From NCBI GenBank assembly GCA_027488975.1, contig JAIYAQ010000029.1, positions 79,007 through 143,006 of the forward strand: DNA of 64,000 nucleotides. The letters run 5' to 3'. The position numbers were made by a program, and so were the translations under genes. Each line of letters starts with the position of its first letter. The stretch's first letter is position 1. The notes under the pieces are model-generated. The model ran no database searches, had not been told where the DNA came from, and saw only the letters and a list, made by a program, of their open reading frames with translations. This document shows, in pieces, positions 43,535 through 47,292 of the stretch. This DNA comes from Cyanobium sp. E1_MAG_00006 (GTDB lineage: Bacteria; Cyanobacteriota; Cyanobacteriia; PCC-6307; Cyanobiaceae).

Positions 43535-43945
43535 TCAGCGTTGCAACTTCGACCCTCCGCAGTCCTGCCAGCTGCTGAGCAGACGCGCCAGCTCGTCTTT
43601 CATGGTGGCGAGCTCAGCGATCCGCAGGGTGATCGATTCCATCTTTGCCGCAATGCTGTGTTTCAGAACAGAGCAGTTGCAGACCCCCTCGCGCCGCACC
43701 TCCAGGATCCTCGCCAACTCGGGGATCGACACATCCATCGCCCGCAGGGCGCGAATGATCGTCAGCTCAGCGAGATTCTCCTCATCAAACAAGCGATATC
43801 CACCTGCGGAGCGATCCTTGGGCTGGAGCAGGCCCTCATCGCAGTAATAACGGATCGTCTTCACCGGCAGGCCGGTGCGCCTGGCTACCTCGCCGATGCG
43901 CAGGCTGGGAGCGGGGTTATCTGATCGCGATCCTTGGCGGGCCAA
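43535..43945 (-). CDS. MerR-family transcription regulator with clustered cysteines
   Basis: A 136-residue regulator. The winged helix reads 'LRIGEVARRTGLPVKTIRYYCDEGLLQP', followed by 'GGYRLFDEENLAELTIIRALR'. The effector region has 'EGVCNCSVLKHSIAAKMESI' and a C-terminal 'WQDCGGSKLQR', so three cysteines are placed near the ends of the dimerisation helix where metal-sensing MerR proteins bind their ion. The best available start is TTG at 43945. It diverges from three small Cys/His-rich secreted or membrane proteins, which suggests it controls them in response to a metal; this is inference. Confidence 0.85.
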   Translation of the reverse strand: MARQGSRSDNPAPSLRIGEVARRTGLPVKTIRYYCDEGLLQPKDRSAGGYRLFDEENLAELTIIRALRAMDVSIPELARILEVRREGVCNCSVLKHSIAAKMESITLRIAELATMKDELARLLSSWQDCGGSKLQR

Positions 43946-44097: not shown

Positions 44098-44349
44098 GTG
44101 TCGATCCTTTCAACTCCGTGGCCAGCCCGGGCGGCAGCCGCGATCGGAGCCAATCTTCTGTTGTCCGCCGCCGGCCTCGCCGCTCCAGCCGCAGGTTCGG
44201 GCGGCGTTCCGGCGATGTACGCCACTCAGGCCGAGGCGGAGAAGGCCGCCAAGCTGCATTTCAACTGCAGCGGCGCCCACAGGATGGGAAATCAGTGGAT
44301 GCCCTGTGCCCAGCACGGTGGCGGCCAGGGCTCCTCGCACTCCCACTGA
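44098..44349 (+). CDS. Secreted DUF3721 small Cys/His protein
   Basis: An 83-residue protein. The N-terminus looks like a signal peptide (ARAAAAIGANLLLSAAGLAAPAAG), followed by a DUF3721-type domain: 'YATQAEAEKAAKLHFNCSG' then 'AHRMGNQWMPCAQH', and a Gly/Ser/His tail. The conserved Cys, His, Met, Trp and second Cys-x-x-His would suit a metal or haem-type ligand set, but the family has no known function. The start is GTG at 44098; no other start gives a signal peptide. It begins a three-gene run divergent from merR and shares the same C-terminal motif with the next gene. Confidence 0.75.
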   Translation: MSILSTPWPARAAAAIGANLLLSAAGLAAPAAGSGGVPAMYATQAEAEKAAKLHFNCSGAHRMGNQWMPCAQHGGGQGSSHSH

Positions 44350-44363
44350 GGCCCGTCACGTTC

Positions 44364-44771
44364 ATGGCTCAGTGCGGCGACAAGCCCAAGCGGATCGCTT
44401 TCGGGGTGGCTCCCCTGGGCATCGTCTCCATCGGCATCGTGCCGATGGGGGTTGTGAGCATCGGCGTGGTGCCGATGGGGGTGATCAGCCTCGGTGTGGT
44501 GGGCATGGGCGTGCTGAACGCCGCCGTGGTGGGGATGGGGGTGGTGGTGGCCGGAGTCCATGCCATGGGGATCTGGTCGCTCACCCCCGGCGCCGGCCAT
44601 CATCACCACCGCAGCGCAACTGAGCCGTCCCACCAGCTGCTGGCCTACCCAAGCCGGCAGGTGGCCCTTCAGAAAGCGCGTGAGCTCGGTTGCGATGGCG
44701 TTCACGCCATGGGCAGTCTCTGGATGCCCTGCTCGGAGCATCCAACGCATCAGTCCTCTCACCACCACTGA
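44364..44771 (+). CDS. Glycine-led hydrophobic pentad repeat protein with DUF3721-like tail
   Basis: A 135-residue protein with two parts. Residues 14-73 are twelve consecutive five-residue units that nearly all begin with Gly (GVAPL GIVSI GIVPM GVVSI and so on). Residues 90-135 repeat the DUF3721 pattern of the previous gene ('ALQKARELGCDGVHAMGSLW' then 'MPCSEH') and end in a His-rich tail; a HHHH cluster sits in the linker. The pentad array could be membrane-embedded or form a hydrophobic beta-helix. Met residues recur at the fifth pentad position. The gene starts 14 bases after the first DUF3721 gene. I know no described protein of this layout; metal handling is inferred from His, Met and Cys content. 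Confidence 0.72.
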   Translation: MAQCGDKPKRIAFGVAPLGIVSIGIVPMGVVSIGVVPMGVISLGVVGMGVLNAAVVGMGVVVAGVHAMGIWSLTPGAGHHHHRSATEPSHQLLAYPSRQVALQKARELGCDGVHAMGSLWMPCSEHPTHQSSHHH

Positions 44772-44774
44772 ATC

Positions 44775-44972
44775 ATGCGATCGATCCGTCATCTCAGCTT
44801 GGCGCTGATTGTTGCTCTGCTGGCCTCCACACCTGAAGCCATGGCGTGCGGTGGAGGTGGTTCCGGCAGTTACCGCAAACCCGCTCGTCCGGGCCAGCAC
44901 CAGCATCAACAACGTTCGGTGGCGCCATCCTCTGAAAAGGAATCCACAACTCCCGTTGTTGCGCCCCGATAG
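44775..44972 (+). CDS. Small secreted His/Gln-rich protein
   Basis: A 65-residue protein with a signal peptide (HLSLALIVALLASTPEAMA) and a mature part that starts 'CGGGGSGSYRKPARPGQHQHQQR'. The Cys right after the likely cleavage site resembles a lipoprotein site, although the lipobox is not canonical. It lies three bases behind the pentad-repeat gene. Its last codons are inside a large stem-loop. No family was recognised. Confidence 0.6.
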   Translation: MRSIRHLSLALIVALLASTPEAMACGGGGSGSYRKPARPGQHQHQQRSVAPSSEKESTTPVVAPR

Positions 44973-45020: not shown

Positions 45021-46649
45021 TTAGAACCTGAAGGTCGTCTTCACCAGCCCGCCGAACTGGCTGAAGCTGTCGCCGGCAGGCGTCTGCTGGCCGAAGGGAC
45101 GGCTCAGATAAATCAGGGCTGGTGTGACCGTGACATTGTCGGTCACCTGGAACTTATACCACCACTCCCAGACATAGTTGCCGTCGTTGGGAGTCACGCC
45201 ACCAGTGAGTGCGGTGGCGAAGACGGGTTGGGCCACAGCAAAGCCGAAGTCATTGCCCTTCTGGAACACATCCGTCCACTGCAGACCCACCATCCAGGAC
45301 TGACTGGTGCTGAGGCTGCCGCGGGGCTGCGGCGTGCTGTATGTCGTGCTGTTGATTCCCCATCCCAGGCTGAGGGAGGGAAGCCAGCCGCTGCGCAGTG
45401 GTTGCCAGAAGGCGCTCAGGCCCAGGGCATTGGTGGCGGCGTTGATGTTGTGATCGATGGCGCTGTGGGTGAACGGCGTGGTGCCTGGAACGAACTGGGT
45501 TTCAGGTTGCACGTAAGACCAGATGGCAGCCAGGCCCCATTGCTCCTGTTGATAGCCGAGCTGAACACTGCCGGTCGAGCCGGAATTCTTGTTGCCAAGT
45601 CCGCCGCCACCGTTCTCTGCCGAAACACTTGGGTTGCCGCTATCGCCATTGGCTGCCACGTAATTGGCACTCAGACTGAAGCCGTTGCTCTGCCACCAGA
45701 GGCCCGCGCCAGCGCCAAGATTCTTGCTGTAGGCCGCCGGTGCGCCATTCACCGTCATCACGTTGAGGATGGTGTCAGACGGGTACACGCTGGGCCACAG
45801 CGCCAGCATGTCTTCCTGCCCCACGCGAGCACCCAGGGTGGCTGTGAAGCCGCCACCGATGGGCCATTGGTAGAAGAGCTTGTCGATGGATACAACATCA
45901 CCGCAGTCTGTCCCAGTGCCGCAATCTTCTTCAAAGGCAACCTCAAGTTCAGCAAGTCCGAGGGAATGCGGTTCCCCGCCAAACACACTGTTGCCAAAGT
46001 TGCCAGCTCGCAGGTTGGTGCGCAGCAGATCCTTGCCGTTGAAGCTGGTGTCCAACGTCAGTTGCAGGTCGTAGTTGAACGTGGTGGCATTGGGCAGCGG
46101 TACGGGGGCCCGCCGCCGCCCTGTGAACTCATTCGGTGCTCGGTTGACCGTGTTGGCCGCTGTGTTGATCGCCGATCCCGAGAAGGTATTGGCCCCCACC
46201 ACGAAGGTGGCCTGACCTCTGAGCTTGGTGGTGGTGGAGAAACGGGTGGCTTCCAGCTCGCCCACCTTGGCCTCAAGACCATCCACGCGGCCCTTGAGCA
46301 CGGCGAGTTCCTTCTCGAACTCCTTCATCAGGCGCTTGAGCTCGTCGGTCACCTCGGTGATCCGATCCAGACAGGCGTTCAGCAGGGCGGCCGCCTCATA
46401 GCGGGTCATCGCCTGGCCGCCCTTGAAGGTGCCGTTGGGGTAGCCGGCCACGCAGCCGTAGCGCTCGATCAGGTTGCTGAGCGCCTGATAGGCCCAGTCG
46501 GTGGGCTTGACGTCGGAGAACTGGGAGATGCTGGTGACCTGCTCCTGGCTGGCGTACTGGCTCACATCCGCCAGGTTGAGACTGGCGGCGTTTGAGGCCA
46601 TCGGCGCCGCAAGGCCAAGAACGATGAGCGAGGAACGCAGAGGAAGCAT
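45021..46649 (-). CDS. Cyanobacterial SLH/OprB-type outer membrane porin
   Basis: A 542-residue outer membrane protein. After a signal peptide (SSLIVLGLAAPMASNA) there is an SLH domain ('SISQFSDVKPTDWAYQALSNLIERYGC'), a coiled coil of about 45 residues (ITEVTDELKRLMKEFEKELA) that spans the periplasm, and an OprB-like beta-barrel of many short amphipathic strands ending in 'LVKTTFRF' with the terminal Phe needed for barrel insertion. Cyanobacterial members are often called iron-uptake or general porins. I chose the ATG at 46649 (MLPLRSSL). It is convergent to the DUF3721 cluster. Confidence 0.93.
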   Translation of the reverse strand: MLPLRSSLIVLGLAAPMASNAASLNLADVSQYASQEQVTSISQFSDVKPTDWAYQALSNLIERYGCVAGYPNGTFKGGQAMTRYEAAALLNACLDRITEVTDELKRLMKEFEKELAVLKGRVDGLEAKVGELEATRFSTTTKLRGQATFVVGANTFSGSAINTAANTVNRAPNEFTGRRRAPVPLPNATTFNYDLQLTLDTSFNGKDLLRTNLRAGNFGNSVFGGEPHSLGLAELEVAFEEDCGTGTDCGDVVSIDKLFYQWPIGGGFTATLGARVGQEDMLALWPSVYPSDTILNVMTVNGAPAAYSKNLGAGAGLWWQSNGFSLSANYVAANGDSGNPSVSAENGGGGLGNKNSGSTGSVQLGYQQEQWGLAAIWSYVQPETQFVPGTTPFTHSAIDHNINAATNALGLSAFWQPLRSGWLPSLSLGWGINSTTYSTPQPRGSLSTSQSWMVGLQWTDVFQKGNDFGFAVAQPVFATALTGGVTPNDGNYVWEWWYKFQVTDNVTVTPALIYLSRPFGQQTPAGDSFSQFGGLVKTTFRF

Positions 46650-46842
46650 GGACCGAATCTCCAGAGCACCACCGTGGTGCCTTGGGCGGAATTGTGCTCT
46701 TTCTCTCCAGTTCGTCACTGGTACTGGAGACTACTGTCAGGGTTTGGGCATCGCAGCCGGGTCAGCGCCATGGTTGTCTGTGTCGCCCTGCGCTGAGCAG
46801 CTTCCATGGGGTCCTGCCGAGGGTCCGGGCAGAGGATGGAGG

Positions 46843-47278
46843 ATGAAAGGCAATGTCCTGCGGCAGATGACGCGGATCTCCTGGCGAGAAACCGTTCTGG
46901 CCACAGCGGCCCTGCCCCTGGCGCCGGCGGCTGCCTGGGCCCAGGCTGATGCCTATCTCGGTAGCGGCTTCCTGGCCGGCTTCCTGCACTCGATCAGCGG
47001 TGTCGATCACCTGTTGCTGCTGGTCGGCATCGGGGCCGCGGCCTCCTGCATTTCTGCGCAGCTGCTGCTCTGGGCTCTGGCTGGGGCTATCGGCGGTGGT
47101 GTGTTCTGAGCGATGGGCGGCACCCTGCCGGCCCAGGAGTTCCTCGCAGCCCTGGCGATTACGGCGGCAGCTTCCAGGCGCTGCGGCGTCTGCCCTTGGC
47201 CTGGCCCGTGGCGTGTGTGCTGCTGGCTCTCTGCGGCGGCGTGTCAGCCCTGGGGCCGATCGGCTTGCTGATGCGCTG
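46843..47278 (+). pseudogene. Decayed HupE/UreJ-family membrane transporter gene
   Basis: The first frame gives a signal-like helix and 'GFLHSISGVDHLLLLVGIGAA', which matches the HupE/UreJ motif (HPxxGxDH), and then stops after 'AGAIGGGVF'. The expected next segment ('MGGTLPAQEFLAALAITA') is in another frame, and the last helix ('LRRLPLAWPVACVLLALCGG') is in a third. At least two frameshifts are needed, and the ~60-residue middle region is missing. HupE/UreJ proteins are linked to nickel or cobalt uptake. The copy cannot make a normal protein. Confidence 0.75.
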
Positions 47279-47292
47279 ATCTGAACGCAGGG

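Follow-up and report, generated by a model that had tools for sequence, protein, structure and literature searches.

A Gly-led decad repeat fused to DUF3721 in picocyanobacteria: a candidate metal-binding protein of the cell envelope

What might be the role of a small protein in which a long run of hydrophobic, Gly-led pentads is joined to a module rich in Cys and His? The question is raised by a gene at 44364..44771 (+ strand) in a 64,000-nt stretch of contig JAIYAQ010000029.1 from Cyanobium sp. E1_MAG_00006 (the whole stretch is referred to below as the window). The family to which its 135-aa product belongs appears to be present in nearly all marine and freshwater picocyanobacteria, and the literature that was searched contained no description of it: no paper was found that names the GLTT repeat (Pfam ID PF01744) or DUF3721 (Pfam ID PF12518). 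Few phototrophs are as abundant as Prochlorococcus and marine Synechococcus, and the places where these grow are shaped by how they handle copper and zinc.

Anatomy and age of the repeat

From the N to the C terminus, the protein consists of the stretch CGDKPKR, the repeat, a His-rich linker with an HHHH run (residues 79 to 82; 44598..44609), a DUF3721 domain (residues 95 to 127; 44646..44744), and a short His-rich end, as delineated from its translation, an alignment with 83 homologs, and matches to PF12518 and PF01744. The repeat occupies residues 14 to 73 (44403..44582) and reads GVAPL GIVSI GIVPM GVVSI GVVPM GVISL GVVGM GVLNA AVVGM GVVVA GVHAM GIWSL. A previous sequence-only reading of the window had described it as twelve pentads, eleven of them Gly-led, and this description was confirmed: the 11 in-phase Gly residues (of 13 in the repeat region) were equalled in none of 100,000 shuffles. 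The same reading placed Met, Ile, or Leu at the fifth position of each pentad. Met falls in alternate pentads only (residues 28, 38, 48, 58, and 68, encoded at 44445-44447, 44475-44477, 44505-44507, 44535-44537, and 44565-44567), so that the true unit is a decad, present in six copies with the consensus Gxx[P/A/S/G]M-GxxSI. The repeat comprises 60 strongly hydrophobic residues with no charge, hydropathy is about 1.9 across residues 11 to 73, and no classical signal peptide of the fused protein is evident by eye. The repeat frame is the coding frame, as DUF3721 lies in the same frame and the DNA mismatches with two related loci, L009 and L010 (5/1/17 and 6/1/15 at the three codon positions), are found mainly at third positions.

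The likeness of neighboring 30-base blocks had been taken as a sign that the repeat grew by duplication. However, compared with block identities computed from the protein sequence and local codon usage, this likeness is about what these two factors give: DNA identity is 0.521 at a lag of 15 bases, where the protein sequence encoded by random synonymous codons would give 0.518, and 0.647 at a lag of 30 bases, where it would give 0.595 (p = 0.03). The repeat units are also closer to the same-position units of distant homologs (0.53 to 0.63) than to units at other positions (0.35 to 0.46), which means that any duplication was ancient. Recent tandem duplication at the DNA level was rejected on these two grounds. 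The Gly and Met positions, P17, P27, P37, and N52 are invariant or nearly so in the 83 picocyanobacterial homologs, which argues that the repeat arose long ago and has been essentially fixed in length in picocyanobacteria; it appears to be old and held by selection. One natural deletion was seen in a Prochlorococcus-type genome (G137; L093:1651-2076), where part of a repeat unit is lost (GFISMGIVTIG) and the register is kept.

DUF3721, gene neighborhood, and distribution

The part of the protein that had been noted as a Cys/His motif is DUF3721, whose membership in PF12518 is firm (E = 3.9e-16; 58.9 bits against a cutoff of 27; positions 1 to 33 of the 33 in the profile). It contains C110, H114, M116, W120, M121, P122, C123, and H126, among which C110, H114, M116, W120, and C123 are invariant in 83 of 83 homologs and H126 is found in 81. 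AlphaFold2 (AF2) models this domain confidently, with pLDDT up to 95. Among 146 cyanobacterial genomes, DUF3721 was seen in the window's own family only.

A second gene upstream (44098..44349, + strand; GTG start as called) encodes a DUF3721-only protein (PF12518, E = 1.6e-14) with an export-signal-like N terminus and a short His end. Such a gene lies upstream of the repeat gene in 49 of the 77 loci with enough flanking sequence. In freshwater strains, the N termini of its products resemble signal peptides, and in many Prochlorococcus the products have lipoboxes together with poly-His tails (signal peptides and lipoboxes were called by eye and with a simple pattern). These N termini indicate that DUF3721 probably acts outside the cytoplasm, and the DUF3721 domain of the fused protein might do likewise. 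On the other side, starting 4 bases past the repeat gene, 44775..44972 (+ strand) encodes a protein of 65 aa, possibly in the same operon, that has a signal-like N terminus and contains Cys, His, and Gln residues; its homologs are found directly behind the repeat gene in three other loci (L009, L010, and L014) and, with weaker similarity, in L016, L021, and L028.

Divergent to the DUF3721 genes is a gene for a MerR-family regulator (43535..43945, − strand; PF13411, E = 1e-19). Its best NCBIfam match, CadR-PbrR, is below the cutoff, and its nearest models are CadR-PbrR and ZntR. Of 80 loci, 12 have a MerR gene on the opposite strand, those of the window's nearest relatives among them; in 11 of these 12, it is located between about −300 and −430. 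The alignment of the intergenic region between the MerR and DUF3721 genes contains conserved blocks and no clear MerR-type operator. Fur-family genes are found near 19 of the 80 loci, including those of marine Synechococcus, and Znu transporter genes are found near 13; znuABC and a Fur-family gene lie near the locus in a group of Prochlorococcus, with a different arrangement in L017 and L087. NCBIfam gives none of these Fur-family proteins a zinc assignment. Overall, 31 of the 80 loci have a MerR, Fur-family, or Znu gene within about 5 kb, which, as many of these loci share ancestry, we estimate to represent perhaps four or five independent associations. No copRS or copBAC genes were seen next to the loci examined, and in other cyanobacteria the repeat gene has no consistent neighbor, being surrounded by ordinary genes.

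The surroundings of the locus in the window include several other genes. An SLH-OprB-type porin (45021-46718, − strand) is directly convergent with the metal-linked genes. At 46501-47284 (+ strand), there is a match to HupE/UreJ, a nickel/cobalt permease type, that covers only profile positions 6 to 54 of 179 in a frame that ends early; the gene could be broken or contain a frameshift. The segment 40138-42929 (+ strand) is a split KdpD-like signaling set, with a KdpD sensor domain and Usp, a separate histidine kinase overlapping in another frame, and then a LuxR-type response regulator.

The fused repeat-DUF3721 protein is encoded in all 80 GTDB loci that were kept, and the window's family has a match in 112 of 121 genomes, some of these matches being in DUF3721 alone. 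The window's own genome (2.70 Mb), which is closest among named relatives to Cyanobium and freshwater Synechococcus, has three copies of the repeat gene, each beside a DUF3721-only gene. The repeat also occurs without DUF3721, in two forms. Prochlorococcus and Synechococcus have a short companion that is often encoded just downstream, and other cyanobacterial families have proteins of about 100 to 130 aa, most of which end in a tail rich in His or Met. Of 386 cyanobacterial genomes searched with a profile, 94 gave a match, in a few cases to a simple-repeat artefact. A single-sequence scan revealed no viral relatives. Four profile matches in IMG/VR (L233 to L236) were considered as such and rejected: they are antisense frames of long phage repeat proteins that read (GSVSTGSVSIG)n, mimic the pentads, and can thereby mislead profile searches. 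BLAST found no match in plasmid and phage records, a weak result given that BLAST masks simple sequence.

The putative ligand ladder, the predicted fold, and possible functions

The clearest pattern in the repeat is seen at the residue that precedes every second Gly. For its analysis, homologs were collected again by a profile with the turn columns masked; two reverse-strand frames (L185 and L206) were removed as artefacts, and two further sequences that break the rule (L224 and L225, the latter with one Cys cell) were left out of the count, both being simple-repeat artefacts. In the 84 non-redundant true members, this position in units 2 to 6 is occupied by Met 383 times, by His 27 times, by Cys 6 times, and by nothing else; Leu, Ile, and Val never appear there. 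In the same 84 members, the equivalent position in the other pentad varies among Ile, Ala, Leu, Val, Trp, Phe, Tyr, Ser, Thr, Gly, and others, and the ladder position of unit 1 is also free (Leu, His, Arg, Thr, and others). In many forms from outside the picocyanobacteria, the first two or three units have His in place of the turn Met (SPHG, SAHG, IPHG); in the short picocyanobacterial companion, Cys replaces it in unit 5 (VGCG). By parsimony, on a weakly resolved tree, units 2 to 6 require about five such changes. Going by BLOSUM62 frequencies, a changing Met would be expected to become His or Cys only about 3% of the time. Since the changes are so few, the statistical weight of the pattern lies in all of them landing within Met, His, and Cys and in the fact that Leu and Ile have stayed out of this position over a long time. 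A Met/His/Cys-only position at every tenth residue amounts to a direct, testable prediction of metal binding.

The fold of the repeat was predicted by AF2 with low confidence. In the full protein, its model consists of roughly ten-residue strands that turn near P-M-G (pLDDT 55 to 64); when the repeat was run alone with a more diverse alignment, strands were obtained again (mean pLDDT 72, pTM 0.47), and the pLDDT of the repeat over both runs was about 55 to 81. With either model, Foldseek gave no match at E ≤ 0.001 in the PDB or among viral structures; many matches to GlmU-type β-helices were seen, all at E > 1, and discarded. Sequence searches of the PDB yielded nothing convincing with the single protein and no match with the profile. 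The repeat is tentatively predicted to have a β structure rather than that of a helix hairpin. Of the two folds put forward by the sequence-only reading, the hydrophobic quadrilateral β-helix agrees with the prediction in being a β structure, but its specific geometry is not supported, given strands with a period of about ten residues, the pLDDT range, and the absence of a fold match; the Met-lined helix hairpin is not supported. α-Helical membrane hairpins with Met along one face would agree with the hydropathy, which is typical of transmembrane helices, and with the positively charged N terminus. Nevertheless, we consider them very unlikely, because strands were predicted in both runs, a ten-residue period leaves Met on no common helix face, and Pro at residues 17, 27, and 37 and Gly at every fifth residue disfavor a helix.

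These observations are consistent with a metal-binding protein of the cell envelope, a proposal to which we assign about an even chance. The protein would be either embedded in the membrane or periplasmic, and its repeat would form a small β structure made up of six units of ten residues, each of which would set one soft-metal ligand (Met, or His or Cys in some lineages) at the turn before a Gly. Five to seven ligands would thereby be spaced evenly along each molecule as a ladder; the His-rich linker or tail and, in picocyanobacteria, the Cys/His module DUF3721 would offer further sites. Together with the adjacent secreted or lipid-anchored DUF3721 protein, it might bind, buffer, and perhaps hand along a transition metal. 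A ligand set of Met, His, and Cys favors Cu(I), which would be the metal judged by ligand type, and the gene context allows zinc or cadmium too, with Zn(II) a possibility. This reading draws on the ladder rule, the His- and Met-rich tails, the invariant Cys, His, and Trp-Met-Pro-Cys residues of DUF3721, the secreted or lipoprotein DUF3721 partner, the 31 of 80 loci with a MerR, Fur-family, or Znu gene nearby, the hydropathy of the repeat, and its predicted strands. It is weakened by the small number of ladder changes, the ordinary neighbors in other cyanobacteria, the shared ancestry of the regulator associations, the low confidence of the AF2 models and the absence of a fold match, and the fused protein's showing no classical signal peptide by eye. 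In addition, the Zur regulon reported for Synechococcus WH8102, eight genes around znuABC and bmtA (PMC9337993), gives no sign of zinc regulation of the repeat gene, although the gene was not matched to a locus tag in that strain. The metal link suspected by the sequence-only reading stands in a qualified form: the Met residues look functional, and several lines of evidence point to metals.

The repeat could instead be just a membrane or assembly anchor, with Met kept for turn packing and metal handled, if at all, by DUF3721 and the His runs. The long uncharged hydrophobic stretch would fit this, as would the Gly and aliphatic positions, which are conserved as much as Met. Packing Met residues would be expected to drift to Leu or Ile, however, whereas the ladder Met changes only to His or Cys, and the repeat-only forms persist without DUF3721; we regard an anchor as possible but rather improbable. 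A system specific for zinc or cadmium, in which the His tails and DUF3721 are the main ligands and Met is secondary, appears less probable still. It would explain the Znu transporter and Fur-family genes in the Prochlorococcus group, L017, and L087 and the nearest models of the window's MerR protein, but zinc sites do not usually show Met conservation as strict as that seen here, NCBIfam assigns none of the Fur-family proteins to zinc, and the associations have ancestry in common. The Met ladder, with its regular spacing and its presence in photosynthetic organisms, might also serve as an oxidant sink that protects the envelope by reversible Met oxidation; this is barely plausible, as it leaves the His and Cys residues at ladder positions, the poly-His tails, and the regulator neighbors unexplained.

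A bolder version of the metal-binding proposal, which we consider as doubtful as the zinc- or cadmium-specific system, is that a new β-repeat fold, possibly in the membrane, stacks Met, His, and Cys in line as a metal-ion relay that delivers to DUF3721 outside. In some lineages, His lies at one end and Met at the other; transport along the ladder is speculation. If true, the relay would amount to a track for metal ions within a protein, assembled from ten-residue units.

Comparison with known families

If the envelope metal-binding proposal is right, PF01744-type repeats and DUF3721, both of them orphan Pfam models, would gain a likely function, and a new β repeat that binds metal may have come to light. 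The protein resembles the GLTT family in its Gly-led pentads and scores above the curated cutoff of 21 bits for PF01744 (E = 4.8e-11 and 42.5 bits for the whole protein; E = 5.5e-19 and 67.8 bits for the repeat stretch alone). This match reflects the order of residues rather than their composition, as two rearranged versions of the repeat gave no match and one that keeps a partial register scored 10.7 bits, below the cutoff. Still, PF01744 is a short model of 28 positions and low complexity, and the window protein has no GLTT or threonine pair but G-V/I-V-P-M and G-V/I-V-S-I units with a ten-residue period, so we describe it as matching the model and not as a typical member. The Met/His/Cys ladder appears to be a new feature that goes beyond the GLTT model. 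The earlier suggestion of a new repeat fold has to be qualified, since PF01744 already covers the pentads, but that model is a described repeat family with no assigned function.

Pentapeptide-repeat proteins (Pfam ID PF00805) share the five-residue period but differ in residue pattern, the repeat described here having a hydrophobic surface. Its separation from the A(D/N)LxG family, made earlier by inspection, agrees with the absence of a match at E ≤ 1 to the A(D/N)LxX model PF00805; Pentapeptide_2 (Pfam ID PF01469) is seen below its cutoff in some relatives only. DUF3721, also without an assigned function, has full members in both the C-terminal module and the neighboring small protein, and in the former it is fused to the repeat. 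As for its proposed role, the protein may be compared with CopM of Synechocystis, a periplasmic copper-binding protein (PMC4284471), the analogy being one of role only, metal binding in the cyanobacterial envelope.
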